A DNA stretch of 36,415 nucleotides from Actinomycetota bacterium (GCA_016208465.1 JACQXZ010000053.1:1-36415); one strand, 5' to 3'; positions 1-31,945 are shown, counted from the first letter of the stretch. Translations and numbers: made by a program. Notes: generated by a model not told the origin, from the letters alone.

Positions 1-130
1 ACCTCTCTCCTCTCAGCTTCACATAGTTCGTTACCTCCCTATGCGTGAGATTCAATGCTGGGCTGGTGGCTAACCTTTGCCCAGACCAGACTTGCACTGA
101 TAAGAGTTAATAAGCTTACTCGGCGCACAC
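1..130 (-). other. Possible 5' end of a group II intron or other structured RNA, running off the left edge
   Basis: This stretch is visibly richer in G+C than its surroundings and has no convincing reading frame. Read on the minus strand it begins GTGTGCGCCGAGTAAG, which fits the GUGYG 5' start of group II introns, and continues with structured-looking sequence: GCTGGT and CTGGGC segments pair with ACCAG and GCCCAG between positions 58 and 94. The intron body and any reverse transcriptase would lie beyond base 1. The first 16 bases recur at 22038-22053, so they may instead belong to a repeat family. The assignment rests on pattern memory and is tentative. Confidence 0.25.
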
Positions 131-150
131 GCCTTACGTCTTACGTTTCT
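115..150. repeat. Heptad array plus shared 16-mer, copy A
   Basis: Plus-strand bases 115-130 (CTTACTCGGCGCACAC) are identical to 22038-22053, and in both places are followed by CTTACG-type units at 7-bp spacing. The array stops at the stop codon of the mannosyltransferase gene at 151. It belongs to the family of 7-bp-phased tracts found throughout the window. Confidence 0.7.
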
Positions 151-858
151 TCATTTCTTATACAATCCCAACCTGAGTCTCCATGGAATAAAAAAAGCCT
201 CTATCACATCTTTTCTTGCCAGCTTTGAGGTGCCCGAACTGCGATCAATAAAAATAATTGGAATCTCTCCAATTTTAAAACCTTTCTTCCATGTCCGATA
301 AGTTGTTTCAACAATAAATGAATATCCATTAGCGTGAATTGCATCCAGATTTATGCTTTCAAGAACTTCCCTCTTAAAACACTTAAATCCGCCAGTGTAA
401 TCTGAAACATTAAGCCCAGTGACAAGACGAACATACAGATTAGCTGCTTTACTTAAGAGAAGCCTTTTGAACCCCCAGTTAACTACGCTGATACCGCGAG
501 TATACCTTGAGCCCAAAATTAAATCATATTCTTTAGCCGCTTCAAGGAAATCAGGAATATATTTTGGATCATGAGATAAATCAGCATCCATCTGAATTAT
601 GTTTTCATATCCCTTGCCTAAAGCAAACTTAAACCCCTCCACGTAAGCGCTTCCCAGTCCCATCTTGCCAGCCCGGTGGATTACATTTACTCTTGATGTC
701 TCCCTTGCAAAATTATCAGCCGCCTCTCCAGTTCCGTCTTTTGAATTATCATCAACTACAATTACATCTACATTTTGAGACAATTCAAGAATTGCCGGGA
801 TTAACTTTTTAATATTCTCAATTTCGTTATAAGTTGGTGTAACAACAACGTTTTTCAC
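151..858 (-). CDS. Polyprenol-phosphate mannosyltransferase-like GT2 (DPM1/Ppm1 type)
   Basis: This protein probably transfers mannose (or a related hexose) from a nucleotide sugar to a polyprenyl phosphate at the inner face of the membrane, making a lipid-linked donor for GT-C enzymes. The 235 residues match the compact Ppm1/DPM1 form. The N-terminal VVTPTYNE leads into the nucleotide-binding strand, VDDNSKDGT lies at about 35-43, the metal-binding DAD at 91-93, SRYTRG near 117, and TGGFKCF near 155. No transmembrane segments or GtrA domain follow, so it should be a peripheral enzyme. The start is GTG, with a GAGGTGC Shine-Dalgarno 8 bases upstream. The stop codon borders a heptad array. The family call is secure; mannose rather than glucose is inferred from overall similarity. 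Confidence 0.85.
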   Translation of the reverse strand: MKNVVVTPTYNEIENIKKLIPAILELSQNVDVIVVDDNSKDGTGEAADNFARETSRVNVIHRAGKMGLGSAYVEGFKFALGKGYENIIQMDADLSHDPKYIPDFLEAAKEYDLILGSRYTRGISVVNWGFKRLLLSKAANLYVRLVTGLNVSDYTGGFKCFKREVLESINLDAIHANGYSFIVETTYRTWKKGFKIGEIPIIFIDRSSGTSKLARKDVIEAFFIPWRLRLGLYKK

Positions 859-895
859 TTAAAAATGCACCTCAGTTAGAAAAAAATATCCTTTT

Positions 896-918
896 AGGAC
901 AGCCGAGACGGCTGTCCT
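896..918. repeat. Dispersed 23-bp palindrome, copy 1
   Basis: A perfect 9-bp stem AGGACAGCC / GGCTGTCCT encloses the loop GAGAC. It is a variant of the GACAG..CGAGA..CTG.CCTAC family also seen at 927-949, 4442-4464 and 23231-23253. It lies between two genes of the same operon and has no T-tract, so it is not a classical terminator. Confidence 0.75.
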
Positions 919-926
919 GCCGGACC

Positions 927-949
927 GTAGGTCAGGCGTCTCGCCTGAC
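927..949. repeat. Dispersed palindrome, copy 2 (inverted)
   Basis: The 8-bp stem GTCAGGCG / CGCCTGAC encloses TCT. On the minus strand it reads GTCAGGCGAGACGCCTGACC followed by TACGG, matching the copy at 23231-23253 in core sequence and in the trailing CCTAC. It sits only 8 bases from copy 1 and in the opposite orientation. Confidence 0.75.
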
Positions 950-955
950 ATATTT

Positions 956-1957
956 TTATGTTAAGACCTCCGACCTACAGCCTGCAAGCTCCTTAACCAC
1001 CAGCACCTTAACCGAATCTGTTTTTCTTTTTTTCAATCTTAGAATTCTTTTAACCAATCCCCAGAAAAAACCAAGACCATAAGAAATATGAATAGTTAAA
1101 AAAAGCGCTGGCGCTAAAAAAATCAAAACAGGATTTCTGTTTTGATAAATCATTATAGAAAAAGTAAAAATCAAACTCAAAACAATATACAAATACAACG
1201 GCAGAATATATATAGAATTCCTTACAAAAATTAAAGAAAATAAATAGATTGTAAATAAAAGAGGAATGAAATAAATAAGATTAGAGGTGAATGGGCTAAT
1301 AAAAACATGTTCCATCCTGCTCCGTCCATAAATAAACATCTGCTTCACAAAATCAGGATAAGATTCACGTTTGCTCTTGTAGATAACTGCCTGAGGATTA
1401 TAAATTAAATGATAATCCTTTTTTCTCAAGCGATTAATGAATTCATTTTCTTCATTAGGATATAAATCTTCATTAAATCCATCCAATTCCAAAAACACAT
1501 TTCTTTTAATACTAAAATTTGCCAAAATGAAATTCTTTTCGGTTCCTTCTCTTGGCTTACCGAAAGATGCAAATCTTGACCGGGTATTAAAACATCCAAG
1601 GTTTGAACCTAAAACATAGGCAAAAGATTTTTGGATAAACGTATCTGTTTCAGGAGACAATTCGGGACCGCCTGCGCCAACAATTTTATCGTCCTTATAA
1701 AAATCAATTGTTTGATTAAATAATTCGGAATCAACTATTGCATCGCTGTCCAGAAAATAAATTATTTCCCCTTTGGCTTTCTTTGAAGCTCTGTTTCTTT
1801 GGACTGATGGGTGCTTTCCTTCAACAACGATTATCTCCAGCTTCTCGCTGGGATAATTTATTTTCTCTAACGAGCTAAGAGCTTCTTTAGCCGCCTCACC
1901 GGGTGGAACAGGAATAATCACTGTGATTGAAGGATAAAAAACATTCTCATTCAACAA
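956..1957 (-). CDS. GT2 family glycosyltransferase with C-terminal membrane segments
   Basis: This is a GT-A fold family 2 glycosyltransferase that probably extends a lipid-linked glycan at the cytoplasmic membrane face. The N-terminal ITVIIPVP strand, a VEGKHPSVQRNRA segment and the metal-binding DSDA at 70-73 are visible, followed by an acidic motif NEENEFINRL near 167-176. About three hydrophobic segments occupy roughly 225-305, anchoring the catalytic domain. The start is TTG, preceded by GAGGAG at 7 bases, and it overlaps the stop of the next gene by 11 bases. The last dozen residues (around ELAGCRSEVLT) are encoded by a 7-bp-phased array, so the natural C-terminus has probably been replaced by repeat sequence. 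Sugar specificity cannot be read. Confidence 0.85.
   Translation of the reverse strand: MLNENVFYPSITVIIPVPPGEAAKEALSSLEKINYPSEKLEIIVVEGKHPSVQRNRASKKAKGEIIYFLDSDAIVDSELFNQTIDFYKDDKIVGAGGPELSPETDTFIQKSFAYVLGSNLGCFNTRSRFASFGKPREGTEKNFILANFSIKRNVFLELDGFNEDLYPNEENEFINRLRKKDYHLIYNPQAVIYKSKRESYPDFVKQMFIYGRSRMEHVFISPFTSNLIYFIPLLFTIYLFSLIFVRNSIYILPLYLYIVLSLIFTFSIMIYQNRNPVLIFLAPALFLTIHISYGLGFFWGLVKRILRLKKRKTDSVKVLVVKELAGCRSEVLT
961..1015. repeat. Heptad array overlapping the 3' end of the GT2 gene
   Basis: Plus-strand units TTAAGAC, CTCCGAC, CTACAGC and CTGCAAG, then CTCCTTA, ACCACCA and GCACCTT, follow one another in 7-bp phase. The array overlaps the stop codon and the final codons of the glycosyltransferase gene. 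Confidence 0.6.
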
Positions 1958-2927
1958 TAAGATTCTCCTCTGCTTTCTCGAAACTTAAATGTTCTTTCCA
2001 TGATATAAAATAGCCTGCCAAAGCTAATGGAATCGGGCCTAAAATAAATGTCATCAGCGAAAGAGAAAAAGCATATTCTTTGCTTACACCCAAAGTTGAA
2101 AATAATAAAATCAACGCATACTCTCTTGTTCCGAGTCCCATAACTGAAACAGGAATTAACTCAACCATAATTATCGCCGGAATAAAAAACAGAAAATAGA
2201 AATAATTAACTCTGATGCCTAACGATAGAGCATATAAAAATGCTCTGGTAGAAATAATTACCCATCCGCCAAAAGACAACAAAACAGAAAAGCCCAAGCT
2301 CTTATAATTGTGGATTACTTTTTTAACGCCCTGATAGAATTCATCAAAATTCTTCTTGAGGCGTTCATGGAATTTAGAAGGAATTATAAATTTGTAAAAT
2401 AACCTGCCTACTCTTTTTGTATAATTCTCATTCATCAAAATTATGATTAAAACAAGCAGTATGACAGCAGCAACAACAGGAGCAACAACCATCATTTCTG
2501 ACTTCACTTGAGACATAACAATAAGTAATCCTGCAACTGCCAGAATAATTAAAGTTATCATTTCAATAAATCTTTCTACGACAAGAATACCCATCCCGGT
2601 AATTGTTTTAATACGAGTAATCTTTTTTAAATTATATATTTTTATTAAATCGCCAATTCTCCCCGGTGTTACTGTTCCAAAAAAAAGACCAATAAGATAT
2701 GTTTTAAATGAATCCTTAAACGAATAATCAGCGTATGTTTCTACCATAACTTTTAGCTTCCACGATTTAACAATTGCTTCAGCAATGATTAACGCAGACC
2801 CTAAAATTAAAAATCCAGGATTGGCTTTACTGACAATTTTAATTAAATGATAAATATCAATTTGCGTTAAAATAAAAACAAATAAAATTAATCCAAAAAA
2901 ACTAAGATACTTAAGAACCCTATTCAC
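1947..2927 (-). CDS. LPG_synthase_TM / AglD-like multi-pass membrane protein (UPF0104)
   Basis: This is a multi-pass inner-membrane protein of the lysylphosphatidylglycerol synthetase transmembrane family (the flippase-type half of MprF, also the core of archaeal AglD). About eight hydrophobic segments are visible. The family signature TVTPGRIGDLIKIY lies near residues 85-98, with a later PVSVMGLGTREYALIL segment. At 326 residues it lacks the soluble aminoacyl-transferase half of MprF, so it is probably a lipid-linked sugar or lipid translocation partner for the neighbouring glycosyltransferases. The GTG start shares one G with the TAG stop of the radical SAM gene, which implies translational coupling. 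The membrane family is clear; the substrate is inferred from context only. Confidence 0.8.
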   Translation of the reverse strand: MNRVLKYLSFFGLILFVFILTQIDIYHLIKIVSKANPGFLILGSALIIAEAIVKSWKLKVMVETYADYSFKDSFKTYLIGLFFGTVTPGRIGDLIKIYNLKKITRIKTITGMGILVVERFIEMITLIILAVAGLLIVMSQVKSEMMVVAPVVAAVILLVLIIILMNENYTKRVGRLFYKFIIPSKFHERLKKNFDEFYQGVKKVIHNYKSLGFSVLLSFGGWVIISTRAFLYALSLGIRVNYFYFLFFIPAIIMVELIPVSVMGLGTREYALILLFSTLGVSKEYAFSLSLMTFILGPIPLALAGYFISWKEHLSFEKAEENLIVE

Positions 2928-4414
2928 TATACTTCCACTTTTTGTTTACTTTTATCATAATCCTTTTCATGACCCATAAGCGACTTGACCCCTCTAAAAG
3001 CAAGTTTTACATCATGGGAGGAGCGTAAAGTAACAAATGATTTAAGTAGAAATCTTGGATGGTGATGAATAGTCCATATTTTTTTACACCATGCCACAGG
3101 ATCAACTGAAGATTTTAAAACCGGCTTTGAGAGACCGTATTTCTCATAATCATTCGGATCAATAATGAACCAGTTATTTTTCAAACAATCCCGATGAAGG
3201 GGTGTGCCCGGATAAGGAATCACTACGTTTGCTTCAAGCGAATCTCCACATCTGGCTTTATATAAAACAAGATCACGAGCCACATCGTGAGACCTCTTCA
3301 CGTCTTCCTCTGTCTCCCACGGATAACCAACCATTACCGTAATCATAATCTGCAAACCATAATCCTTAGCCAGCTTCACCCCCCTTTGAATTTCCTCAAC
3401 GGTTTCATCCTTAACCAAGCGCTTTAAAGTTTCATTGTTGCCGGATTCCAGACCAACTTTAAGCATCCTGAATCCTGTTTTCCTAAGCAAATCACAAATT
3501 TCATCATCCAGACAATCCGCTCTCGCGTTAGAAGAAAGAATTACTTTACCAATCAGCTCTTCTTTCTTCATCTCTTCATAAAATTCCCTCATCCATTCTT
3601 TATTCCAGATGCCGCCCGCTTCATTATCATCAAAAATTTCCTTAACACCATATTTTTCTACCAGTATCTTGATTTCCTGAACTACATTTTTGGCTGAACG
3701 AAGACGCGCTTTACAGTTCCAAAGAGCGTATTGCCAAATACAAAACTTGCAGACACCAGCGCGTTTAACACCTCCGCATCCGCGGCCTGAAAGAATATAG
3801 GCGCAAGGACGATAAAGATAGGCTTCTCCATACATATCCCACTTGGTTAAATCCCTGTCAATAAAAGGAAGTGAATCTAAATCTTCGTATGGTTCAAATT
3901 CACCGCTGTTTTTAATTTCATCGTTTTCCCGCCAATAGACACCTTTTGGCATTGGTTCACCTTTTTCAAGATGTCTTGCCAGATTACGGAGGCTAAAATC
4001 AAAATCTCCTCCGGTTGAAACATAATCTACTTTACTGTTTTTTAAAGATTCCTCGGGGAAAAATGAAACATGATCTCCGATTAAAACAGTTTTGAGTTCT
4101 GGGTTTTTAGTTTTGAGTTCATCAATAAATTTCCAGTGTCTTCTTAGCACCGGAGCTTTAGTTTCTATAACCACCATATCAGGTTTAAAATCAAAAAGTT
4201 CTTTATTGAATTCTTCTGGCGAAAGACGTTCGTTGATTCCATCCTTATACAAAACTTCATTTCCATCAGCCTTAAGCGTTGTCGCGGCTGAAGCAATCAC
4301 AAGCGGATAAATCTTTATGCCTTCTGATGAGGTAAAAGTAAAAATTCTATTCTGGCTTAATAAAGGATACTTTCCCTTATACTCAAAAGGTGGATAAACA
4401 ATTGCTACTCTCAT
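2927..4414 (-). CDS. B12-binding radical SAM protein with atypical CX8CX2C cluster motif
   Basis: An N-terminal cobalamin-binding-like Rossmann domain (VAIVYPPFEYKGKYPLL, then VLIGDHVSFFPEE about 110 residues later) precedes a radical SAM barrel. In related enzymes this pairing carries out methylations or rearrangements of lipids, sugars or natural products. The cluster site SGRGC is followed by an eight-residue stretch (GGVKRAGV) before CKFC, giving CX8CX2C (Cys213, 222 and 225 from this start) rather than the usual CX3CX2C. The rest of the barrel (FDDNEAG, SSNARADCL, VGLESG, MVGYPWETEEDV) looks intact. An upstream ATG at 4432 exists, but AAAGGA lies 8 bases before the ATG at 4414, so the shorter start is chosen. 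The gene is coupled to the AglD-like gene. The substrate is unknown. Confidence 0.8.
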   Translation of the reverse strand: MRVAIVYPPFEYKGKYPLLSQNRIFTFTSSEGIKIYPLVIASAATTLKADGNEVLYKDGINERLSPEEFNKELFDFKPDMVVIETKAPVLRRHWKFIDELKTKNPELKTVLIGDHVSFFPEESLKNSKVDYVSTGGDFDFSLRNLARHLEKGEPMPKGVYWRENDEIKNSGEFEPYEDLDSLPFIDRDLTKWDMYGEAYLYRPCAYILSGRGCGGVKRAGVCKFCIWQYALWNCKARLRSAKNVVQEIKILVEKYGVKEIFDDNEAGGIWNKEWMREFYEEMKKEELIGKVILSSNARADCLDDEICDLLRKTGFRMLKVGLESGNNETLKRLVKDETVEEIQRGVKLAKDYGLQIMITVMVGYPWETEEDVKRSHDVARDLVLYKARCGDSLEANVVIPYPGTPLHRDCLKNNWFIIDPNDYEKYGLSKPVLKSSVDPVAWCKKIWTIHHHPRFLLKSFVTLRSSHDVKLAFRGVKSLMGHEKDYDKSKQKVEV

Positions 4415-4421
4415 AAAAAAT

Positions 4422-4429
4422 TTCCTTTC
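4422..4429 (-). promoter_or_regulatory. Shine-Dalgarno deciding the radical SAM start
   Basis: Minus-strand GGAAAGGA lies about 8 bases upstream of the ATG at 4414 but inside the longer reading frame that begins at 4432. It supports translation from the internal ATG. Confidence 0.6.
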
Positions 4430-4441
4430 CATTAAGTATTA

Positions 4442-4464
4442 GTAGGACAGCCATCTCGGCTGTC
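4442..4464. repeat. Dispersed palindrome, copy 3
   Basis: The minus strand reads GACAGCCGAGATGGCTGTCC then TAC. The 7-bp stem GACAGCC / GGCTGTC encloses GAGAT. Compared with the 23231 copy, the stem changes G to C on one side and C to G on the other, preserving pairing. The remaining gap to 4547 holds a second GC-rich piece (CAGGAACAGGCGGGC) and otherwise AT-rich sequence with no gene. Confidence 0.75.
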
Positions 4465-4547
4465 AAATCATTTCACCTTTCAGGAACAGGCGGGCATTTA
4501 AAAACAACAAGTGATTATTTATTCTATCACAACTAACAAATTTCCTC

Positions 4548-7951: not shown

Positions 7952-7984
7952 TTCAGGTACTTTCCTCCTTTTGCATTTTTTTCT

Positions 7985-8021
7985 TCACTTGTGTCTTGTG
8001 ACTTGTGACTTTTATTTCTCC
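7985..8021. repeat. Heptad array
   Basis: Plus-strand units CACTTGT, GTCTTGT, GACTTGT, GACTTTT run in 7-bp phase and overlap the stop codon at 8012 of the broken methyltransferase gene. Confidence 0.75.
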
Positions 8022-8492
8022 GCCATCAATATACATTCCATGCTAAACATATTAGGCCAGATACCAGCCAAAAAACCAGTGTTTAGACTATCGCCTTTAA
8101 AAAATTCTTTCTTTATTATTTTAGCTCCAGTTAAATCCAGCAATTCGATAAAATCTTTATAACTGAAAAGATGAATATGCCGTGTATTATACCATTTGTA
8201 ACCGTGAAGTGGTTTAGCCGGAAATTTACCCTTTAAAAGCAACTGGAGTCTCGATTTAAAATATCCAAAATTAGGAAAACTGACGATCACTTTTTTGCCT
8301 GTCCTTAAAGCTTATTTTAAAACATTTTCCGGCTGATAAACCATTTGCAACGTCACAAAGAACCTTCGAATTTCTGTCTATCCACTTCTCTATAAATTTA
8401 TATTCCGCTCTTTCAGTTCTGGCAACAGATTCATCAGGAGACTTATATCCGTAATCCGCAAAATAATTCTTAGATGTTTTATCCCCGCTCAT
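8012..8492 (-). pseudogene. MetW-like SAM methyltransferase, broken (internal deletion and nonsense codon)
   Basis: The C-terminal part (VSFPNFGYFKSRLQLLLKG, WYNTRHIHLFSYKDF) is characteristic of the MetW methyltransferase family, and the N-terminal part (EYKFIEKWIDRNSKVL) fits the start of the same fold. Between them the SAM-binding GxGxG motif and about 65 residues are missing: the sequence jumps near 8353-8362 from KVL directly to TLQMVYQPENVLK in another frame, and then meets an in-frame TAA at 8312-8314 where relatives have a glutamate. Reading through that codon restores ALRTGKKVIVSFPNFG. Its ATG overlaps the upstream GT4 stop as ATGA, so it was an ordinary operon gene. It cannot bind SAM as it stands. 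Confidence 0.8.
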
Positions 8493-9730: not shown

Positions 9731-9750
9731 ATATAAAATCCTCTGTTAAT

Positions 9751-9843
9751 AGGTTATAGGTTGTAAGTCACAAGTCAAAGCTATATCCTTCTCTTCCATT
9801 TCTCTCCACTTATGACTTACGACTTGTGACTTGTGACTTTTTA
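9751..9843. repeat. Bipartite heptad array with inverted arms
   Basis: The plus strand starts AGGTTAT, AGGTTGT, AAGTCAC, AAGTCAA and ends CACTTAT, GACTTAC, GACTTGT, GACTTGT, GACTTTT. The 7-bp phase holds across the middle. The right arm is roughly the reverse complement of the left (GTCACAAGTC against GACTTGTGAC), so the tract can fold. It supplies the last codons of the radical SAM gene on its right. Confidence 0.85.
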
Positions 9844-11210
9844 GCTTTAACTACAAACGATGCGAGACTTTTGCTTTCAAATATTTTATCTAAAATTTTC
9901 TCTGTTATCCCGCTGATTATTTTAGGCAGTTTGTAATTAAATGAATAAATTTTAAGCATTCTTCTGACGTACCAGAATGCAAAATTAACCTGATCGTGAG
10001 TTATGGATGGTTGATTAATAATTGTATCTTCAAAATAACTGTTTAAATTTTTACCTGTCAGAAATTTATTATTCTCACATTCGTCAAATAACCTTGTATG
10101 AGGAAAGGGATAAAATATAGAAACCTGTAGGTTGGTTGGATTAATTAAAGCGTTTAATTTTATAGTATCCAAAATCATCGACATATCCTCAAAAGGCAAA
10201 CCAATCATATTATAAGAAACTGTATTTATTCCATATTTTTGGCACAGCCTAAAAGCATTAATAATATCTTCCCGTTTCATCCGGCGATTTAAGACCTTTT
10301 CTCTTATATAATCGTTCCCGCTTTCCAATCCCATCGAAATCTCAAAACAATTCGCCTCTTTTAGCATTTTAACCGAGACTTCATCAAGCAAATCAACTCT
10401 TGAATTGCAGGAAAAGGGAAGATTTATTTCTTCTTTCCATCTCGCGGTAAATTCATTTAGCCATTTCTTATTTAAAGTCAGAATATCATCATGAAAAACA
10501 ACATATTCCGGTTTTTCAATTTCTATAATTTTCTTAACTTCTTCCAAAACATTATTAACGCTTCTGAATCTTACATATTTGCCTGAATAAATTTTTTTAA
10601 GCTGATGATTGCTGCAAAAAGAACATTCGTAGGGACATCCGCGCGATGCCATAAAAACTGTTCTTTTGAGTTTCGCGTCTTCAAGATTTTTATAATCAAA
10701 AATATCACGATCGGCAAATGGCAATTCGTCCAGATTCTCTTTTAATGGCCTCAAGTGGTTCTTGTGTATCTCATTATCTTTCTTTACCCATAAATTCTTA
10801 ATATCTGTAAAATCTTTATTTTTTTCAATCCTGTCGCAAAGTTCAACGATTGCTTCTTCACCCTCTCCAATACATATCATATCAATAACTTCTGAATTAA
10901 TTGAACCATCTGGATCCAATGTCGGATGAATTCCTCCGCATAAAACCGGAAGATCGAAGTTCTTTTTCACATAACCTGCATATTTTTCAACATAAGAAAA
11001 CATATTAGTGGTTGACGAAAAAGCGATTAAATCAGGTTTTTCCTGATTTATAATTTGCACAAAGTTTGATTCAGACATCTCATTTATTAAGTGAATAAGA
11101 AAGGTTTTGTGACCAGATTTTTTCAAAGCAGCAGATATATGTGCGATTCCATGATAAAATTTTCCTTTTGATCCGATACTGAAATCCGGATAAACCAAAG
11201 CAACTTTCAT
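9810..11210 (-). CDS. B12-binding radical SAM protein (canonical CX3CX2C)
   Basis: An N-terminal cobalamin-binding-like domain (VALVYPDF, CGGIHPTLDPDG, IGEGEEAIVEL) is followed by a radical SAM domain with MASRGCPYECSFCSNHQ: Cys192, 196 and 199 ligate the 4Fe-4S cluster. ISMGLESGND and YNMIGLPFEDM are typical later barrel motifs. Members of this group often methylate or modify lipids, polyketides or sugars; the position among glycosyltransferases suggests a glycan or lipid-carrier substrate. The last ten residues (KKSQVTSRKS) are encoded by GTCACAAGTC-type heptad repeats, so the native terminus has been overwritten. The Shine-Dalgarno GGGGGA, 7 bases before the ATG, comes from the hairpin end of the DUF559 element. 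The substrate is unknown. Confidence 0.85.
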   Translation of the reverse strand: MKVALVYPDFSIGSKGKFYHGIAHISAALKKSGHKTFLIHLINEMSESNFVQIINQEKPDLIAFSSTTNMFSYVEKYAGYVKKNFDLPVLCGGIHPTLDPDGSINSEVIDMICIGEGEEAIVELCDRIEKNKDFTDIKNLWVKKDNEIHKNHLRPLKENLDELPFADRDIFDYKNLEDAKLKRTVFMASRGCPYECSFCSNHQLKKIYSGKYVRFRSVNNVLEEVKKIIEIEKPEYVVFHDDILTLNKKWLNEFTARWKEEINLPFSCNSRVDLLDEVSVKMLKEANCFEISMGLESGNDYIREKVLNRRMKREDIINAFRLCQKYGINTVSYNMIGLPFEDMSMILDTIKLNALINPTNLQVSIFYPFPHTRLFDECENNKFLTGKNLNSYFEDTIINQPSITHDQVNFAFWYVRRMLKIYSFNYKLPKIISGITEKILDKIFESKSLASFVVKAKKSQVTSRKS

Positions 11211-11217
11211 CTGCAGA

Positions 11218-16643: not shown

Positions 16644-16673
16644 CAAGTTAGACTCACTTCGTTCGCTAACTTG
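16644..16673. repeat. Inverted repeat near the start of a GT2 gene
   Basis: CAAGTTAG (16644-16651) and CTAACTTG (16666-16673) form an 8-bp stem around a 14-base loop. It lies about 15 bases upstream of the TTG start at 16629 and borders a heptad array; its function is unknown. Confidence 0.5.
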
Positions 16674-16870
16674 AATTGTAAATTGAAAATTGAAAAATGT
16701 AAATTGAAAAATAAAGATTACTCTTCTATAGTTTATTTTGCAATTATAGGAATTTCATCAAAAAGGAAATTCCTATGCTTTCTAATTAAGTTTCTTTGTT
16801 AAGGATTCGAGTAAAAATCTTTAGAAAAAAACACTTGAACCCTCGAATCCTTGTCCCCTTGAATCCTTCC
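16674..16870. repeat. Bipartite heptad array around a central hairpin
   Basis: The left arm repeats TGTAAAT, TGAAAAT, TGAAAAA units. The right arm has CACTTGA, ACCCTCG, AATCCTT, GTCCCCT, TGAATCC units ending at the stop of the GT2 gene. Between them lie the perfect 11-bp stem ATAGGAATTTC / GAAATTCCTAT (16746-16776) and the inverted pair AAGGATTCGAG / CTCGAATCCTT (16801-16852). No small gene is apparent in this 241-base gap. Confidence 0.7.
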
Positions 16871-17857
16871 TTAAAACAGGTTTCTTCTCATCCAATTCAA
16901 ATAATTAAATTTCACAAACCATCTCTCTATTTCTGCCTGACTAATCAGTCTTCTCTCCTGAATTATTCTTCTTTTTGAAAACATCGCAGGAAGTTCTTTT
17001 GCCACATAAAACCATCCTTTAAGGGCTGAAGGACATCTGAAAATCAGCGCTGTGCCTTTGAGTATTTCAGTAAATAAAAGTTGGGGGGATTTTTTTAATA
17101 TACTCCAGAAACTATCGTTTTTAATCATTAAAAAATATCTGTTTTTATAATTATGCAATTCAACAAACTTTGAGCGCCTCAAGAACGGACCGCCTCTTTC
17201 ATGATAAGCAATTGCATAGGGTGTGTATATACACTGCCAACCTCGCAGTTGCGCGCGCCAGTCCAAATCAACAACTTCCCAAAAAGCAAAAAATGCTTCG
17301 TCAAAATACTCATCGTTTACTTTTATATCTTCAAGCATTTCCCTTCTGTAAAAAGCCGCGGCCCCACATGTCCCAAAAACAAACTCAATCTGATTAAACT
17401 GACCCTTGTCAATTTCATTCTCTCCTCTGTTCTCTGCCAAACGATTACGAAAAATTATATGTCCTGTTGAATCAATTACAGGCATGTCTTTTGTTGAATT
17501 AAGACGTAAAAGTTTTCCTGAAACAGAGCCTATTCTTTCACTGCTTTCAATTGCTTTTACCATTTCGCTTACAAAATCCTGCTGAAGAATTATGTCATAA
17601 TTCAAAAGTAAAATATAGTCCCCGTCAGATAGTTTAATTCCTTCATTCATTGCTTTGGCAAAACCTTTATTGGTATCATTTTTAATAATTGAAACAGGAG
17701 AATATTTACTAACTAATTCTAATGAATTATCAGTAGAAGCATTGTCTATCAGAATAACTTTAAGTGGTTTATAATCTTGATCTAATACTGATTCCACACA
17801 TTTCTCAATTAAAGCTTTACCGTTCCAGTTAAGAATGATAACAGAAACTGATTTCAT
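16871..17857 (-). CDS. GT2 family glycosyltransferase
   Basis: This is a family 2 enzyme of 328 residues with VSVIILNWNGKALIEKCVES at the start, LIDNASTDNSLELV at about 36-49 and FAKAMNEGIKLSDGDY. The metal-binding position reads NYD (86-88) instead of the usual N-P/S-D, with the Asp kept. The later acidic motif is FWEVVDLDWRAQLRGW, followed by a conserved YHERGG and a stretch LHNYKNRYFLMIKND shared by many rhamnosyl/galactosyl transferases of this type. The ATG at 17857 has GGAG 6 bases upstream, inside a heptad-array arm. A heptad array also begins at its stop codon. It probably adds one sugar to the surface glycan; donor and linkage are unknown. Confidence 0.85.
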   Translation of the reverse strand: MKSVSVIILNWNGKALIEKCVESVLDQDYKPLKVILIDNASTDNSLELVSKYSPVSIIKNDTNKGFAKAMNEGIKLSDGDYILLLNYDIILQQDFVSEMVKAIESSERIGSVSGKLLRLNSTKDMPVIDSTGHIIFRNRLAENRGENEIDKGQFNQIEFVFGTCGAAAFYRREMLEDIKVNDEYFDEAFFAFWEVVDLDWRAQLRGWQCIYTPYAIAYHERGGPFLRRSKFVELHNYKNRYFLMIKNDSFWSILKKSPQLLFTEILKGTALIFRCPSALKGWFYVAKELPAMFSKRRIIQERRLISQAEIERWFVKFNYLNWMRRNLF

Positions 17858-17874
17858 TAAAACTCCAAGTTATA

Positions 17875-18021
17875 AGTCACAAGTTATAAGTCACAAGTTA
17901 AAGTTTAACTTTTTTCTTTCATCCTTCTTTGCTTGTGACCTGCAACAGTTGTACTAATTTTGATTATCTAAGCTTTGACGTTTGAACTTTCACTTGACCC
18001 CTTGAATCCCGATTAATTGCT
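17875..18021. repeat. Long bipartite heptad array
   Basis: About 147 bases in 7-bp register fill the whole gap between two genes. The left arm alternates ATAAGTC and ACAAGTT. The right arm runs AAGCTTT, GACGTTT, GAACTTT, CACTTGA, CCCCTTG, AATCCCG up to the stop codon at 18020. The inversion point is near AAAGTTTAACTTTT. Confidence 0.85.
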
Positions 18022-22027: not shown

Positions 22028-22037
22028 TTAATCTTTC

Positions 22038-22078
22038 CTTACTCGGCGCACACATCTTACGCCTTACGTTTCACGTTT
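22038..22078. repeat. Heptad array plus shared 16-mer, copy B
   Basis: CTTACTCGGCGCACAC at 22038-22053 is identical to 115-130. It is followed by ATCTTACGCCTTACGTTTCA, again in 7-bp phase, up to the stop at 22077. Together with copy A it defines a composite repeat of about 36 bases. Confidence 0.7.
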
Positions 22079-23156
22079 ATACATCGTCATTAAAAACTCT
22101 ATATAACTTATAAATTATTGTTTTTTTGATTTTTGCCAAAGAATTTTCTATTTCCGACAAATGCGTTTCTTTTAGACTTAAATTTAACTGAAGCTCATCG
22201 AAGGCAATATTTTTGTTTTCTATCTCTTTCTTTAATTGCCTGACATTCCTCTCATTAGCCTTGGTTTTACGCTCCAAATTTCTAATAGTCTGTTCCAAAG
22301 TGTTTATATAAACAGCCTGCGCCTGTAATTGCTGATTAACCTGCAAATTAAACAAATCAATTAACATCTGAAATAGCTGAAGCTTATAACTAGCTTCATC
22401 TGGATTCATTTTAGAATCAAGCGTAAAATTATTTTTAATGCTATTTAAGAAATCTAAATTCTTCTTTCTTGATGCTACTACTACATGCCGATAACTCGGC
22501 GATCCATAATCCCGATATGAGAAATTAATGTTGTAAATTCTGTCTAATTCTGCCTGAATTTTTTCTGAATTTAATACTGCCATTATATAATGTTTTACCA
22601 GCATCATAATTAACCAATTGTAGAGATTCCCGCTCGGAAATTCTACTGGCAAAAAATTATTTTCCACAAAAGTTTCCATAAGACAATTGATGTCCGGTAA
22701 TCCATAATCAATATGCTGTTTTAATGTAGGAAATTCTCCAAAAACCCGTAAAACATATTCATAAAGAAGCTGTTCTGAAAGTTTTACTTCTCTCTCATTA
22801 AAAGGGGCGCTTAAAATAACTAAATTATTTGTTACCCTGCAGAGTTCTTTAATAAAAATATCTCTTTTTTCCGGTGAAATATGCTCATAAACATCCAGAC
22901 TTGTCACAATATCAAAGCTTTTATCTTCAAAAGAAAGGGATGTCCCGTCACCTAAAATATAATTTGATTTGTCAGATGGAATAATATCCAGTATATATGT
23001 CTCATCGTCAGGCAGAAAATCAGAAATTAGACCCGGATAGCCACCAACATCGAGAATCTTCATTTTGTCTTTATTTCTTGCCAGATTTACTATTTCTTCA
23101 GTAACTTTGTATCTCTGAAACTGATCAAAGGGCAATTCGTAAAGCTTTTCATCCAT
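22077..23156 (-). CDS. SAM-dependent methyltransferase with C-terminal coiled coil (paralogue 2)
   Basis: This has the same architecture as the next gene downstream: an identical opening KLYELPFDQFQRYK, then KILDVGGYPGLISDFLPDD for SAM binding, ILGDGTSLSFEDKSFDIVTS, and LVILSAPFNE. The C-terminal coiled coil spans about residues 265-340 (LEQTIRNLERKTKANERNVR and onward) and ends with IIYKLYRVFNDDV, matching the aromatic-basic tail of the paralogue. A start at 23168 would add four residues. The ATG at 23156 is preferred because GGAG is 6 bases upstream and the start then aligns with the paralogue. Located directly after wzt, it is the best candidate for the chain-capping methyltransferase recognised by the Wzt C-terminal domain; that role is inferred. 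Confidence 0.8.
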   Translation of the reverse strand: MDEKLYELPFDQFQRYKVTEEIVNLARNKDKMKILDVGGYPGLISDFLPDDETYILDIIPSDKSNYILGDGTSLSFEDKSFDIVTSLDVYEHISPEKRDIFIKELCRVTNNLVILSAPFNEREVKLSEQLLYEYVLRVFGEFPTLKQHIDYGLPDINCLMETFVENNFLPVEFPSGNLYNWLIMMLVKHYIMAVLNSEKIQAELDRIYNINFSYRDYGSPSYRHVVVASRKKNLDFLNSIKNNFTLDSKMNPDEASYKLQLFQMLIDLFNLQVNQQLQAQAVYINTLEQTIRNLERKTKANERNVRQLKKEIENKNIAFDELQLNLSLKETHLSEIENSLAKIKKTIIYKLYRVFNDDV

Positions 23157-23185
23157 CCGTTTCTCCATACATTTATCTTTCTCGC

Positions 23186-23318
23186 GTTTTGCGTTTTACA
23201 AAGCAAGCAAAGCTAAAGCCTTGCCTTCTTGACAGGCGAGACGCCTGCCCTACTTGTGACTTGTGACTTGTGACTTGTGACCTGCAACTTACATCTCACG
23301 TCTCACATTCACTTTATG
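23186..23318. repeat. Heptad array with central palindrome, extending into wzt
   Basis: Four exact ACTTGTG units (23253-23280) continue as ACCTGCA, ACTTACA, TCTCACG, TCTCACA, TTCACTT, crossing the wzt stop (23289-23291) by about 25 bases. To the left a weaker arm (CGCGTTT, TGCGTTT, TACAAAG, CAAGCAA) is separated by the dispersed palindrome at 23231-23253. Confidence 0.85.
23231..23253. repeat. Dispersed palindrome, copy 4
   Basis: GACAGGCGAGACGCCTGCCC then TAC: the stem CAGGCG / CGCCTG encloses AGA. It is the same family as the copies at 896, 927 and 4442. Here it sits between the two arms of a heptad array. Confidence 0.75.
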
Positions 23319-24557
23319 CTTCCATTTAGCCATAATACTTACAAAACCGTTCGACTCCGTCGTCCCTCCGGGCAACACTTTAAAAGAATACATTCTGTCA
23401 TGAACATCATAAGGATGAAGACAGGATTGATCAAAAATTGCGGCTGTGAAAAGATATGTTCCTGCGAGAAGAGGCAGTTCTTTTACTTTATATTCAATAT
23501 AACCCTTGCCATTAATTGAGTCTATTTTGTAATTACTTATTTTTGTATTTGGTCCCGTAATATGAATTCCATCATTCCTGTAGACAGCAATCCCAAAAAC
23601 TGGATTGGTAATAGTTTTATGAGCATCATAATCTATTCTAACAATAAATTCTTCATTGGTTAAAAAAGAATCTGTTTTTTCTCCTTTGTTGTTTAAAAAA
23701 CCAACATCGGTTATTTCTACTTCTTGAGAACCGGCCCTTGAGCCAACTTCCTGCTCTACCTTATGTCCAGCTTTTCGACGCTCTTCCTCGTTTACTTTAT
23801 TCAAATAAAGATCAACTACCTGCCGAGCTTCCCCGTGACTCTGAATGCATCCTTCATCTAGCCAAATAGCTATATCACAGATATTTCTTACCGCCTCAAG
23901 ACTATGGGAAACCAAAACTATGGTTTTACCCTGAGCTTTAAATTCGAATATTTTATCAGAACATTTTCTCTGAAACAGCTCATCTCCTACTGCCAGAACT
24001 TCATCTATTAATAAAACGTCAGGATTAACATTTATAGCAACAGCAAAGCCTAAACGCAGATACATTCCCGAAGAATAATTTTTAACCGGTGTATCAATAA
24101 ACTTATCTAATTCCGAGAAAGAAACTATATCATCAAATCTGGCGTCTACCTCTTTTTGGGTAAGACCTAAAATAGAACCATTCAGATAAACATTTTCTCT
24201 CCCTGTAAGCTCAGGATGAAAACCCGCTCCCAATTCAAGCAATGCGGAAATTTTTCCATTAACAACAAAAAAACCTTCATCCGGCCGCAGAATTCTGGCT
24301 AAAATTTTTAAAAGAGTGCTCTTGCCGGATCCGTTCTCGCCAATAATTCCAATTGTACTGCCTTTTGACACAGTAAAAGAAACATCTTTGAGCGCCCACA
24401 TTTCTTCAAATCTGGCTTTTTTTCTCCTTAAAAATATTTCTTTAATTGTTTGATTTCTTTCATAATAAATACGATACTTTTTACTTATACCATTAGCTTC
24501 AATCGCGTTGTTGCTATTATTTACCTTATTTTTCATGGCTGTCATTAAAAATATCAC
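23289..24557 (-). CDS. wzt: Wzt: ABC polysaccharide exporter ATPase with C-terminal carbohydrate-binding domain
   Basis: This is the nucleotide-binding subunit of a two-gene polysaccharide exporter. The ATPase domain holds Walker A GENGSGKS (73-80), the O-antigen/teichoic-type SALLELGAGFHPELTGREN, signature YSSGMYLRLGFA (161-172), Walker B VLLIDE (181-186) and the switch histidine in VSHS (218). After about residue 275, a beta-rich domain of about 140 residues (VEITDVGFLNNKGEKTDSF, VFGIAVYRNDGIHITGPN, LLAGTYLFTAAIFD) matches the Wzt C-terminal domain that in E. coli O8/O9a recognises the capped, methylated glycan end. The GTG start has GAGGAGG, part of the end of wzm, 8 bases upstream. The final residues VNVRREM are encoded by heptad repeats. 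Confidence 0.92.
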   Translation of the reverse strand: MIFLMTAMKNKVNNSNNAIEANGISKKYRIYYERNQTIKEIFLRRKKARFEEMWALKDVSFTVSKGSTIGIIGENGSGKSTLLKILARILRPDEGFFVVNGKISALLELGAGFHPELTGRENVYLNGSILGLTQKEVDARFDDIVSFSELDKFIDTPVKNYSSGMYLRLGFAVAINVNPDVLLIDEVLAVGDELFQRKCSDKIFEFKAQGKTIVLVSHSLEAVRNICDIAIWLDEGCIQSHGEARQVVDLYLNKVNEEERRKAGHKVEQEVGSRAGSQEVEITDVGFLNNKGEKTDSFLTNEEFIVRIDYDAHKTITNPVFGIAVYRNDGIHITGPNTKISNYKIDSINGKGYIEYKVKELPLLAGTYLFTAAIFDQSCLHPYDVHDRMYSFKVLPGGTTESNGFVSIMAKWKHKVNVRREM

Positions 24558-24560
24558 AAT

Positions 24561-25379: not shown

Positions 25380-25439
25380 TAATTTTTCCTTTTAAATTAA
25401 ATTTATAATTTTTCCAAAATATTAAACAGAAACAATTCT

Positions 25440-25470
25440 GGTCACCCTAACCTCTTGCCCAAGACCTCAC
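25440..25470. repeat. Short heptad array
   Basis: Units GTCACCC, TAACCTC, TTGCCCA, AGACCTC, ACTTTCC run in 7-bp phase and reach the rmlD stop codon at 25467. Confidence 0.55.
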
Positions 25471-26300: not shown

Positions 26301-26320
26301 TTACAAATTCCCTCCTTTGT

Positions 26321-26437
26321 AGGTCTTAGGTTCAAGGCTCTAGGTCGTAGGGGGTTAAGATCCATTATCCATTATCCATTATCCATTATCCATTATCCAT
26401 TATCCGTCTCCCTGTCTTCCCAACTTCTATTATTCAC
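26321..26437. repeat. Bipartite heptad array with exact tandem units
   Basis: The left arm AGGTCTT, AGGTTCA, AGGCTCT, AGGTCGT is followed in the same 7-bp phase by six exact CATTATC units and then CGTCTCC, CTGTCTT, CCCAACT. It fills the whole gap between rmlD and the DUF3048 gene and runs over the latter's stop codon (26430-26432). Confidence 0.88.
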
Positions 26438-28471: not shown

Positions 28472-28484
28472 ACTCTACACTCCT

Positions 28485-28940
28485 TTAACCGTGTTTTATT
28501 TCCCAATCATAAGGGATTTCATCTGTATCATAAGGTAATCGATATTCATCCGGTTCCTTATAATTATAAGGCAATGTCGGACAATTTATAATACATGCAA
28601 GCTCGGTTCCAATTCCTTTAAAACCATGCATTACCAATGGAGGAATTTTAAGCAAAATAGGATTCCTTTCGCCCAGGAAAAATTCATTTACTTCTCCATA
28701 AGTAGATGAACCCTTTCGGCTGTCGTACAATACAACCTTTGACATTCCTCTCACGCCTACAAAATGATCAGTCTGTTTATAGTGATAATGCCATCCTTTC
28801 ACCACGCCCGGGTAACAAGCAGTCATATATATCTGACCAAACTGTTCAAAAATTTCATCATCACATCTCAACATCTCCATTAAATAACCGCGTTCATCCG
28901 GAATAACCTTTAGTTGCTTTATTTTAACACCTTCTATCAT
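28485..28940 (-). CDS. rmlC: RmlC-like dTDP-4-dehydrorhamnose 3,5-epimerase
   Basis: This is a cupin-fold epimerase of the RmlC family, expected to epimerise dTDP-4-keto-6-deoxyglucose at C3 and C5. At 151 residues it is shorter than E. coli RmlC (about 185) and resembles compact variants. VIPDERGYLMEML (12-24), VVKGWHYHYKQTDHF (46-60, with the catalytic-type His) and PPLVMHGFKGIG are visible, and the C-terminal PYDTDEIPYDW is a family mark. The function is supported by its place between rmlA and rmlB. A 5-epimerase-only or 3-epimerase-only activity cannot be excluded because the sequence differs from the classical enzymes. The ATG has GGGAGG upstream. Confidence 0.85.
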   Translation of the reverse strand: MIEGVKIKQLKVIPDERGYLMEMLRCDDEIFEQFGQIYMTACYPGVVKGWHYHYKQTDHFVGVRGMSKVVLYDSRKGSSTYGEVNEFFLGERNPILLKIPPLVMHGFKGIGTELACIINCPTLPYNYKEPDEYRLPYDTDEIPYDWEIKHG

Positions 28941-28969
28941 TTAAAACCTCCCATTGAAAAACGTTGTAG

Positions 28970-29135
28970 GTCTAAGGTCTTAGGCTGAAGGTTTAAAATT
29001 CAAAACCCCTTGCAAACCTTAACCTAGAATCTATCCTCACCGCTTAATTAATTCTCTATCTCTATCTCAAATCTCTTCTTACTTCTGTCCTCCGTCTTTC
29101 TTACTTCTCACGCCTTACGTTTCACGTCTTACGTC
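28970..29135. repeat. Long bipartite heptad array between rmlC and rmlA
   Basis: The left arm AGGTCTA, AGGTCTT, AGGCTGA, AGGTTTA changes to TTGCAAA, CCTTAAC, CTAGAAT, CTATCCT. The right arm ends CTTACTT, CTCACGC, CTTACGT, TTCACGT, CTTACGT, CCCTAAT at the rmlA stop. No gene is seen in this 200-base gap. Confidence 0.85.
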
Positions 29136-29140
29136 CCTAA

Positions 29141-30205
29141 TCAAAGTACTCCCACTTTACTATTATCTCCCAACATAAATCTATAAGCCTTTGGTTTAAT
29201 CGGAGACTTGGAAACTTCAACATTTTTACCAATCAGGCTATCTTCAATCCTGACATGAATATCTAAAATTGAACTTTTTTCCAATATAATACTATGTTCT
29301 ATTTCACTATTTTTAATAACTACATCAAAATAAACAGAAGTAAACGGACCAATAAAAGAATTTATGATTTTTGTGTTTTCTCCTATAATCGCTGGTCCTC
29401 TGATAATGCTATTTATAACTTCGGCTCCCTTTTCAATCACCACTTTCCCAATAATATGCGAATCGCTGTCAACAAAACCATCGCATCGACCTGTAAGTGT
29501 ATCAAGGATAATCCGATTTGCCTCAAGCATGTCTTCAAGTTTTCCTGTATCTTTCCACCAGCCATTAATAATATGCGGCTGAACATCATATCCTTTATCA
29601 ACCATATACTGAATTGCATCAGTAATTTCAAGTTCATTACGCCAAGATGGTTTTATATTATTAACGGCCTCAAAAATGTTTTTATCAAACATATAAACAC
29701 CAACAAGAGCTAAATCGCTTGGCGGATCTTTAGGTTTTTCTATAAGCCTGACTATTTTATCTCCGCTAAGCTCAGCCACTCCAAACCTTTGAGGATCTTT
29801 GACTCGGGCTAATAATATCTGGGCATTTGGTTTTCTCTCAATGAATTCATCTACCAGTGATTTAATACCATCTTTAATTAAATTATCACCCAAAAACATC
29901 ACAAATGATTCTTTTTTAATAAATGGTTCAGCTATTTTTACCGCATGGGCTAGTCCTAAAGGAGCTTCCTGCCTTATATAGGTTGCTTTTATGCCCCATT
30001 GACTGCCATCACCAATTGCAGATTTAATTTCGTTCTCGGTCTCACCAACAATAATTCCAACATTGTCTATTCCTGCCTCTTTTATAGCTTCAATTGCGTA
30101 AAATAGTATAGGTTTATTTGCCACCGGCACAAGTTGTTTGGCGCTGGTATGGGTAATCGGTCTTAAACGAGTCCCTTCACCACCGCTCAAAATAAGCGCT
30201 TTCAT
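29141..30205 (-). CDS. rmlA: RmlA (long form): glucose-1-phosphate thymidylyltransferase
   Basis: This makes dTDP-glucose from dTTP and glucose-1-phosphate, the entry step of the rhamnose pathway. The nucleotidyltransferase domain has LSGGEGTRLRPIT (6-18, the signature loop), AKQLVPVANKPI, FVMFLGDNLI (the metal-binding Asp) and IEKPKDPPSDLALVGVYMF. A C-terminal left-handed beta-helix from about residue 240 (IIGKVVIEKGAEVINSIIRG and onwards) makes this the long type found in archaea, actinobacteria and many candidate phyla rather than the 290-residue enterobacterial type. ATG 30205 with GGAGGT upstream. It is the first sugar-nucleotide gene after LCP. Confidence 0.93.
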   Translation of the reverse strand: MKALILSGGEGTRLRPITHTSAKQLVPVANKPILFYAIEAIKEAGIDNVGIIVGETENEIKSAIGDGSQWGIKATYIRQEAPLGLAHAVKIAEPFIKKESFVMFLGDNLIKDGIKSLVDEFIERKPNAQILLARVKDPQRFGVAELSGDKIVRLIEKPKDPPSDLALVGVYMFDKNIFEAVNNIKPSWRNELEITDAIQYMVDKGYDVQPHIINGWWKDTGKLEDMLEANRIILDTLTGRCDGFVDSDSHIIGKVVIEKGAEVINSIIRGPAIIGENTKIINSFIGPFTSVYFDVVIKNSEIEHSIILEKSSILDIHVRIEDSLIGKNVEVSKSPIKPKAYRFMLGDNSKVGVL

Positions 30206-30221
30206 ATTTATCTATTACCTC

Positions 30222-30266
30222 CATATTCAATTTACAATCTTCAATTTACAATTCGATATTCGCAGA
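30222..30266. repeat. Short heptad array
   Basis: Units CAATTTA, CAATCTT, CAATTTA, CAATTCG, ATATTCG in 7-bp phase fill most of the gap between rmlA and the LCP gene. Confidence 0.65.
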
Positions 30267-30273
30267 ATGTCGA

Positions 30274-31575
30274 CTAGCTATTATCATTTTTCGACCCGGT
30301 AGAATCTTTTCCCAATATAACAAGAACATCAGATGATATACTGCCATTTTGAACCGATTCCAGCTCTGCATCCGGAAAGTATTTCTTAACTTTAAGCGCC
30401 TTACTATATTGTCCCCATCTATAACGAACCACTGTTTTTTTATAATCAGAACTGCCGGCATTACCGGTATTCAACACATTAAACCCATCGAGAGCCAGCA
30501 TATTACCAGCATCTCTAGCCGCCCCTGTCTTGCCGCTGCCATTCAATATGATAACCTTTATATCTTTATTCATAATTTTAGTTTTTGAAGTCTCTATGTC
30601 TTTACCATCTGTTTTGTTCACCGACAAACCACGTTTAACTAAAAAAAGAATCTGGCTTATTTTCTCTTCATCCGGAATTACATAACTTACACCATTTATA
30701 CTCTTTGGCGTTCCCGGAAAAGTTATCATCTCAATATCTTTTCTGTTTACTGATTTAAACATATTAGCAAGCCCAAACATCTCCCGCGTGGTCATATCAG
30801 TCTGAATGTTATCAGCAACAATATTAACTAGAGTAGGAAGCTTGAATATTGATTTAATCTGCCACGATTCATCAATTAAAGCATAGAAAAATTTTTGTTT
30901 TTTTTTTTTTCTTACAAAATCACCTTGAGAATCGTGTCTGAAACGAACATAATTTAACGCCCTGTCTCCATCCATCAACTGATAACCGGCAGATATTCCA
31001 AATCTTTTCTCCTTCCAAACCAGCGGTTTTTCAACATTAATCTTTATACCTCCAAGAGCATCAACCAAACGACGGAATCCCCAAAAGTGAATCTCGGCAT
31101 AATGGTGAATTGAAAGACCAGTAAAATCCTCTATAGTGCGAATTGCAAGTTCGGGACCACCTAACGCGTTGGCAGCATTTATTTTATCATAATAATCTTT
31201 TTTACCCGGAATCTTTACTCTGGTGTCACGTGGAATTGAAATCATCTGAATTCTCTTTGTAACCGGATTGATTCTGACAATAATCATAGTATCTGCCCGT
31301 GCGCTTTCTTCTTTTTTCCGCGCATCGCTTCCCAATAATAAAATATTAACTGGTTCTTTTGCAACTGGTTTAGATATAACATTTTTAACTTTTCTAAAAT
31401 TTTTATTCTGAGGATGCAGTTTGCTTTCTATGAAATTTATATAAAAATAACCCCAGACTATACCGCCAACTACTACGAGAAGAGCCGAGATTAAAAAAGC
31501 AAGCAAGACTATTTTAAGCCATGATTTACCTTTATTTTCTGTTCTGTTTCTAGATCTATTTCTATGACGACTCAT
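30274..31575 (-). CDS. LytR-CpsA-Psr (LCP) family ligase with LytR_C domain
   Basis: This is a membrane-anchored enzyme that moves a glycan from its polyprenyl carrier to peptidoglycan in monoderm bacteria. A basic N-terminus and one TM (about 19-43) precede the LCP domain: NILLLGSDAR (77-86), SARADTMIIVRI with R93 and D95, SIPRDTRVKIPG (113-124) and INAANALGG. The C-terminal LytR_C domain (about 343-425: VIILNGSGKTGAARDAGNML, SSDVLVILGKD) is common in actinobacteria. Within the core, where other LCP proteins read like GRxxRQQ, this one has VRKKKKQKFF encoded by a run of 13 A (30898-30910 as T), a slippage-prone site. ATG 31575 with GGAG upstream. It opens the rhamnose/exporter operon. Confidence 0.92.
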   Translation of the reverse strand: MSRHRNRSRNRTENKGKSWLKIVLLAFLISALLVVVGGIVWGYFYINFIESKLHPQNKNFRKVKNVISKPVAKEPVNILLLGSDARKKEESARADTMIIVRINPVTKRIQMISIPRDTRVKIPGKKDYYDKINAANALGGPELAIRTIEDFTGLSIHHYAEIHFWGFRRLVDALGGIKINVEKPLVWKEKRFGISAGYQLMDGDRALNYVRFRHDSQGDFVRKKKKQKFFYALIDESWQIKSIFKLPTLVNIVADNIQTDMTTREMFGLANMFKSVNRKDIEMITFPGTPKSINGVSYVIPDEEKISQILFLVKRGLSVNKTDGKDIETSKTKIMNKDIKVIILNGSGKTGAARDAGNMLALDGFNVLNTGNAGSSDYKKTVVRYRWGQYSKALKVKKYFPDAELESVQNGSISSDVLVILGKDSTGSKNDNS

Positions 31576-31943
31576 AAAAAAGCTTCTCCTTTCTTTCTAC
31601 GTTGATTAGATTACCATAAAGGTCGAATAAAGAAAACTGGTCTCTTGAAAAAAATACCTCGCAGCAATCTGCGAGGTATTAGTCCCTTATAATTCAAATT
31701 TGTGTAATTTTTGGCAAAAAATTTTTAAGCACCAAATTCCAAGCACCAAATAACAAACAAATTCCAATTAAGTAAAATTCAAAATCCGAAACAAAGAGTT
31801 TTCGATCATTGGAAGTTGTAGTTTGGAATTTATTTGAGTTTTGGGATTTGCGATTTGGAATTTAAACTTAGTTTGGGTTATTTGGACATTTGAATTTGGA
31901 ACTTATTTGGAATTTGGATATTGTTATTTGGAATTTCTGACTT
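31576..31943. other. Intergenic region between the LCP gene and the secreted-protein group
   Basis: This 368-base gap holds, from right to left, a large inverted heptad array, a plain AT-rich spacer, the intrinsic terminator, and about 70 bases that should carry the LCP promoter. A TATGGT or TAATCT hexamer near 31605-31617 on the minus strand could be a -10 box, but no convincing -35 partner was found. No small gene is supported. Confidence 0.5.
31644..31680 (-). terminator. Rho-independent terminator
   Basis: A perfect 12-bp stem AATACCTCGCAG / CTGCGAGGTATT with a four-base loop (31653-31680) is followed on the minus strand by seven T residues. It would end transcripts of the secreted-protein group before the LCP operon. 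Confidence 0.9.
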
Positions 31944-31945
31944 TT
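31715..31945. repeat. Largest inverted heptad array (over 200 bases)
   Basis: The left arm repeats AAATTCC, AAGCACC, AAATTCC, AAGCACC, AAATAAC in 7-bp phase. After a centre near 31795-31810 the polarity flips to TGGAAGT, TGTAGTT, TGGAATT, TATTTGA, GTTTTGG, GATTTGC, GATTTGG and continues to TGGAATT at the stop codon of the secreted protein. The arms are imperfectly complementary (AATTCCAA against TTGGAATT). Confidence 0.85.

Follow-up and report, generated by a model that had tools for sequence, protein, structure and literature searches.

Degenerate 7-bp arrays between the genes of an Actinomycetota bacterium as probable copies of dispersed, mostly hairpin-forming repeats

The heptad-bearing intergenic gaps of this Actinomycetota genome are probably copies or remnants of several dispersed, mostly hairpin-forming repeats with degenerate 7-bp tandem arms, and the phase would come from the gain and loss of 7-bp units together with drift and selection. 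The probability of this reading is put at roughly 0.6. Families with different units, many hairpins, a frame with exchangeable stems, single arms that differ in 7-bp steps, and tolerance of arrays at the stop ends of genes were all observed. The window is the whole stretch of DNA that was analysed (36,415 nucleotides).

By autocorrelation, the lag-7 identity of the intergenic DNA in the window was 0.388 (z = 13.8 against dinucleotide shuffles), and the excess was also observed at lag 14 (z = 7.6) and lag 21 (z = 5.0). In contrast, the coding DNA of the window had a lag-7 identity of 0.271, which was under its own shuffle. The genome was analysed over 1.39 of its 1.75 Mb (79%), with genes predicted by a simple hexamer model. 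Its intergenic DNA gave z values of 47, 27 and 28 at lags 7, 14 and 21, with the signal fading by lag 35, while the coding sequences in the same 1.39 Mb showed the 3-bp rhythm alone and no lag-7 excess. An excess in intergenic DNA but not in coding DNA is what the initial annotation had expected of a real 7-bp phase. Exact tandem duplications of 7 bp numbered 310 in the intergenic DNA of the genome versus 19 in shuffles, and the second-largest tandem excess was at period 8 (45 versus 6). The exact tandems comprised 95 different units, which, together with the seven heptad families of different units described below, bears out the claim that the period and not the motif is the common feature. 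The phase is not as strict as was claimed. Lags 6 and 8 form shoulders in the intergenic spectrum of the genome, 6- and 8-bp units occur (the octads AAAGTCAC and AAGGACAC were seen among the copies of the AAGTCAC family), and the phase fades within some 30 bp.

Thirteen stretches of the window had been listed as heptad arrays, and ten of them were clear. Tested singly, those beginning at 7985, 9751, 17875, 22038, 23186, 26321, 28970, 30222 and 31715 reached p = 0.002 at lag 7, the floor of the test, and in 16674–16870 the heptads were confined to 16674–16710. Two were marginal: 115–150, which matches a repeat family although it gave p = 0.018 on its own, and 961–1015, which is not a gap but codes for the C-terminus of an ORF. 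The remaining one, 25440–25470, was not significant as a heptad array (p = 0.39). The gap 28941–29140 as a whole gave a lag-7 z of 5.9. The elements located in the window are as follows.

101–148, minus strand: ACGTAAG-type heptad array (family 11), adjoining the stop of ORF 151–858 (minus); profile E = 8.5e-5, lag 7 p = 0.018
961–1015, minus strand: weak TAGGTC-like heptads within the 3' end of ORF 956–1957 (minus); lag 7 p = 0.02, best lag 15
7981–8013, plus strand: single arm of the AAGTCAC family (family 0), ACTTGTG on the plus strand, abutting the stop of ORF 8012–8290 (minus)
9748–9843, plus strand: hairpin of the AAGTCAC family; profile E = 5e-11, both strands
16644–16778, plus strand: element of the AATTGTA family (family 2), heptads at 16674–16710; profile E = 1.2e-27
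17862–17947, plus strand: hairpin of the AAGTCAC family; profile E = 1.3e-9
22038–22078, minus strand: ACGTAAG-type array, beside and across the stop of ORF 22077–23168 (minus); lag 7 p = 0.002, type read from the sequence
23251–23293, plus strand: single arm of the AAGTCAC family, four ACTTGTG units, across the stop of ORF 23289–24557 (minus)
26321–26405, plus strand: TAGGTC-type heptads at 26321–26350, then 6.6 units of ATCCATT in perfect tandem at 26360–26405
28970–29002, plus strand: AGGTCTA-type heptads before the start of ORF 28485–28940 (minus), by inspection of the sequence
29099–29135, minus strand: ACGTAAG-type array (family 11), adjoining the stop of ORF 29141–30205 (minus); profile E = 7e-4 to 1e-3, TRF
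30226–30253, plus strand: TTCAATTTACAATC array, 7/14 bp; TRF, p = 0.002
31680–31969, minus strand: conserved frame CCCTAACCCGAACAAGTCGGAACT...TGCCAAAAATTACACAAATTTGAATTATAAGGGACTAA with an AAATTCC heptad stem replacing the AAGTCAC stem

The listed units do share the period, but several given as different are opposite-strand readings or one-base variants of one unit. ACTTGTG is the complement of CACAAGT, itself a rotation of ACAAGTC, and ACTTGTG, ATAAGTC and ACAAGTT belong to a single family that can be read on either strand. The hairpin at 9748–9843 consists of an arm (ATAGGTT/GTAAGTC/ACAAGTC), a loop and a second arm (ACTTATG/ACTTACG/ACTTGTG), and the second arm codes for the C-terminus SQVTSRKS of ORF 9810–11210 (minus). 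The ATAAGTC/ACAAGTT array at 17866–17904 lies before the start of ORF 16871–17857 (minus), and the array at 23251–23293 adjoins a GTAG-type palindrome. Rfam gave nothing above the gathering score at the heptad arrays, the one match there, at 9748–9835, being at chance level (E = 0.38). At 1–94 on the minus strand, the group II intron family RF02005 matched with E = 9e-9, short of the gathering score, and the match is cut by the contig end. Directly after the framed AAATTCC element, at 31653–31680 on the minus strand, there is a convincing intrinsic terminator with a 12-bp stem and a T-run. The long genes between 151 and 30205 are all on the minus strand, and judged from translations this region reads like a surface polysaccharide cluster, with putative glycosyltransferases, an ABC exporter pair and dTDP-sugar enzymes.

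In the intergenic DNA of the genome, 14 dispersed families were recovered by self-comparison together with iterative profile searching. Every one has a hairpin consensus, the palindrome profiles being partly symmetrised because both strands were searched. Seven families have 7-bp periodic arms, with the units AAGTCAC, AAATTCC/AAAATCA, AATTGTA, TGTCAAA, CAGAAGA/AATACAG, TATAGGC/TAGGTC and ACGTAAG/ACGTGAG, and the other seven are ordinary palindromes without the period. Each heptad family has copies on 19 to 61 of the 95 contigs, and together these families cover at least half of the array in 336 of 427 cases. Most of the arrays are copies of dispersed elements rather than independent slippage tracts. 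An inverted partner (a complementary stretch scoring at least 24 within 200 bp) was present for 47% of the arrays, versus 7% with shuffled flanks. AAGTCAC was concentrated in the left halves of gaps and the complementary unit in the right halves (116 and 100 versus 36 and 34), the pattern expected of palindromes on either strand when arm 1 is read first. Most AAGTCAC hairpin copies (88%) fold with z below -3, and folding is mostly absent in the ACGTAAG family. Arm 1 matches arm 2 slightly better within than between copies in family 0 and no better in most other families, so the hairpins may not be maintained; covariation showed no excess in most families. The dispersed copies, the pairing of inverted arms and the strand rule given below are features that the initial annotation missed.

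A conserved frame, CCTAACCCGAACAAGTCGG...TGCCAAAAATTACAC..., holds AAGTCAC, AAATTCC or TATAGGC stems, and also CAGAAGA nested in AAGTCAC. The flanks common to the AAGTCAC copies are CCTAACCCGAACAAGTCGGAACT... and ...ATATGTTCTGCCAAAAATTACAC...GAGACTAA. When the flanks alone were searched, 15 frames were found, nine with AAGTCAC stems, four with AAATTCC stems (one of them at 31680–31969 in the window), one with a TATAGGC-type stem, and one with an AAGTCAC stem carrying a CAGAAGA-type stem at its apex. Since one frame carries different heptad stems, the register of seven outlasts a complete change of unit, consistent with the earlier statement that the phase persists where the unit changes. The exchangeable-stem frame suggests a route by which repeat families replace each other at the same intergenic sites. 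In further nested pairs (family 2 in 4, 3 in 10 and 8 in 3) the outer element is split near its apex, and 28 of the 30 large inserts in family 0 are at the apex. This supports insertion at apexes only but does not prove it, because alignment puts anything between two matching arms at the apex.

The copies of the AAGTCAC element also differ unit by unit. Between fixed anchors at the outer end and the apex, arm 1 measures 13, 19–20, 27 or 34–35 nt and arm 2 measures 25 or 32–33 nt; lengths from anchors falling on inner units were left uncounted, and about nine copies are unambiguous by reading. The two arms vary in length independently and one at a time, for example in the copies C18:40985, C82:1409 and C47:4001. 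Single-arm differences of whole 7-bp steps are expected from slippage or unit recombination. The sizes of indels between copies, counted pairwise so that one event is counted many times, peak at 7 in the heptad families only, and the peak is absent in the non-heptad families. Transitions make up 39% of the substitutions between neighbouring units, versus 29% expected. The slippage-like mechanism proposed earlier is therefore backed by copies that differ in 7-bp steps, as judged within one genome. Fold-back synthesis, in which two arms grow in coordination, was rejected as the main process because the arms change length singly and match within copies hardly better than between copies. For the dispersed repeats, 7-bp units would be gained and lost by polymerase slippage or by recombination between neighbouring units, which would make and keep the phase. 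Point mutation would drift the units while the register stays, and selection would purge arrays that reach a ribosome-binding site, the process being otherwise near-neutral. The seven heptad families with their single-arm 7-bp differences provide a natural dataset on which models of slippage, hairpin formation and selection predict differently.

Arrays in the genome lie over 102 stops and only 10 starts. They cover about 12–15% of the first 50 bp past stops and 1–2% of the last 20 bp ahead of starts, and they avoid ribosome-binding sites. The heptad families overlapped stops in 60 of 304 cases, versus 8 of 145 for the non-heptad families (p = 4e-5). About 60 gene ends genome-wide are crossed by arrays, and their C-terminal tails are coded by heptads; in the window these include ORFs 9810–11210 and 23289–24557 on the minus strand. 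Even if the process is neutral, this is a warning that repeats can encode C-termini in such genomes. The arrays next to stops could instead have an RNA function at the 3' end of mRNA, as terminators, processing barriers or stabilisers kept by selection, which we consider unlikely. Such a function would agree with the good folding of the hairpins and with array starts at a median of 0–10 bp past the stop codon in families 0, 4, 10 and 11. It would also agree with the strand rule, that the first arm is found after stops and its complement before starts (147 to 22 near stops and 23 to 120 near starts in family 0; p from 2e-4 to 5e-39 relative to transcription in five of six families). However, a T-run followed 6.2% of the heptad hairpins versus 5.1% of random gap positions, and none of the heptad sites was called as a terminator, so that intrinsic termination by the arrays was rejected. 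Moreover, arrays are present in divergent gaps too (15 of 61), a single job would need seven different sequences, and most families lack excess covariation.

An origin as mobile REP- or MITE-like elements, whose transposase needs heptad arms and reads the ends with this period, is rather improbable. The spread over contigs, the conserved flanks and the nested elements split near the apex are in its favour, and two of the five Y1 transposase genes in the genome have a non-heptad family on either side, family 5 in one case and family 6 in the other.

L261 (G000:C72), 1350–1384 and 1812–1850: Y1 (RAYT-like) transposase gene with a palindrome family
L262 (G000:C51), around 1290–1464 and 1813–2630: Y1 (RAYT-like) transposase gene with a palindrome family

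In contrast, none of the five genes, all of the Y1 class that was surveyed, is flanked by a heptad family, an end fragment of family 2 lying about 700 bp from one of them, and RAYT mobilisation of the heptad families was rejected on this ground. The unit number varies freely and frames take different units, which also argues against a transposase that needs the arms. Families 5 and 6 probably form REP/RAYT pairs with their Y1 genes, in a lineage that is not among the phyla commonly listed for such systems. Family 5, the GTAG-type palindrome, starts GTAGGACAGGC, and copies of it are located at 889–965 and 4439–4494 in the window.

The initial annotation also suggested a protein that reads every 7 bp, but arrays of sites for such a DNA- or RNA-binding protein are very unlikely. 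The spacing is constant and each family has some conserved positions, but there are at least seven unrelated units that drift freely, placement follows tolerance at gene ends rather than promoters, and nothing found requires such a protein. An assembly artefact has a negligible probability even for a draft of 105 contigs with no long reads seen, because the arrays are short, lie between different genes over most contigs, and have similar counterparts in many other assemblies. Two losses of repair functions were rejected as the cause of the arrays: an SbcD-like gene is present, which, judged by the SbcD subunit, speaks against loss of the palindrome nuclease SbcCD, and MutS1 (TIGR01070) was detected in 0 of 40 genomes, this one and 39 relatives (controls detected in 11 of 14), while the sampled relatives are array-poor.

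None of the 296 other genomes searched in the phylum contained the AAGTCAC element, which is therefore lineage-specific, the closest genomes compared belonging to the same class only. The ACGTAAG pattern had 83 matches here and at most 2 in any other genome. Across other prokaryotic genomes, over 100 stretches contain a perfect AAGTCAC triplet, versus about one by our estimate of chance, with hosts that include Omnitrophota, Elusimicrobia, Bacteroidetes, Fibrobacter, Acidobacteria, Gammaproteobacteria and Planctomycetes. With the seeding array excluded, period 7 was the commonest at these loci (73 arrays versus 10 shuffled), and 23% of the other arrays had an inverted partner, versus 3%. These results indicate that heptad-armed hairpins occur beyond this genome (for example at L209, L162, L201 and L230). 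It is possible, as a tentative extension, that such repeats form a class of dispersed bacterial element whose fixed frame has replaceable hairpin stems, always on the 7-bp register regardless of sequence, with new stems arising in or entering at older apexes. The register would then reflect a general replication or repair property of hairpin-forming intergenic DNA, sporadic in many phyla.

Cyanobacterial STRR heptamers are tandem 7-bp intergenic units described as largely uniform arrays. They are a fair parallel, but not the nearest one as was proposed, since the GGGAATC repeats of Xanthomonas are closer. Rehm et al. 2015 (PMC4692102) describe GGGAATC heptamers in Xanthomonas and GGGGA(C/T)T in Nostoc that are intergenic, allow imperfect units and overlap stop codons; they lie on the coding strand at most 50 bp after stops and on the non-coding strand before starts, and Xanthomonas has 70–75 inverted pairs. 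The arrays here likewise have tandem intergenic 7-bp units, the same strands near stops and starts, and close inverted pairs. The Xanthomonas and Nostoc genomes have, however, a single G-rich unit each, which forms quadruplexes, whereas many units are found here and those of the seven families have no GGG run. Dispersed frames, unit exchange and nesting, none of them reported in the text consulted (PMC4692102), are all present here. MacGregor 2015 (PMC4679880) describes direct repeats of TAACTGA in marine Beggiatoaceae, Cyanobacteria and Bacteroidetes, which are also 7-bp intergenic units sporadic across phyla, with 13 sets overlapping stops. Unlike the arrays here, they have one unit and one orientation and lie mostly just before starts, with one inverted repeat among 170 sets (PMC4679880). 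TAACTGA was not among the 60 commonest tandem units here, and placement just before starts was not observed, coverage being 1–2% in the last 20 bp. REP/RAYT systems (PMC3733652) resemble the present case in their dispersed intergenic hairpins, and family 5 flanks a Y1 transposase, but REPs have no 7-bp period and the heptad families have no Y1 flanking. Long simple sequence repeats of prokaryotes most often have seven as their long unit (Mrazek et al. 2007, as relayed in PMC4679880 and PMC4692102), and a 7-nt polymerase contact was proposed by Mrazek and co-workers to favour slippage (as relayed in PMC4679880). Those repeats are exact by definition, and as relayed there, degenerate palindromic arms such as those here are not their subject. 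Many-unit heptads in dispersed frames or nested stems were not found described in the literature searched, which was short on subscription journals. The arrays appear to be a case of the kind known from Xanthomonas and from Mrazek and co-workers, in which the many units per genome, the dispersed frames and the nested stems appear to be new.
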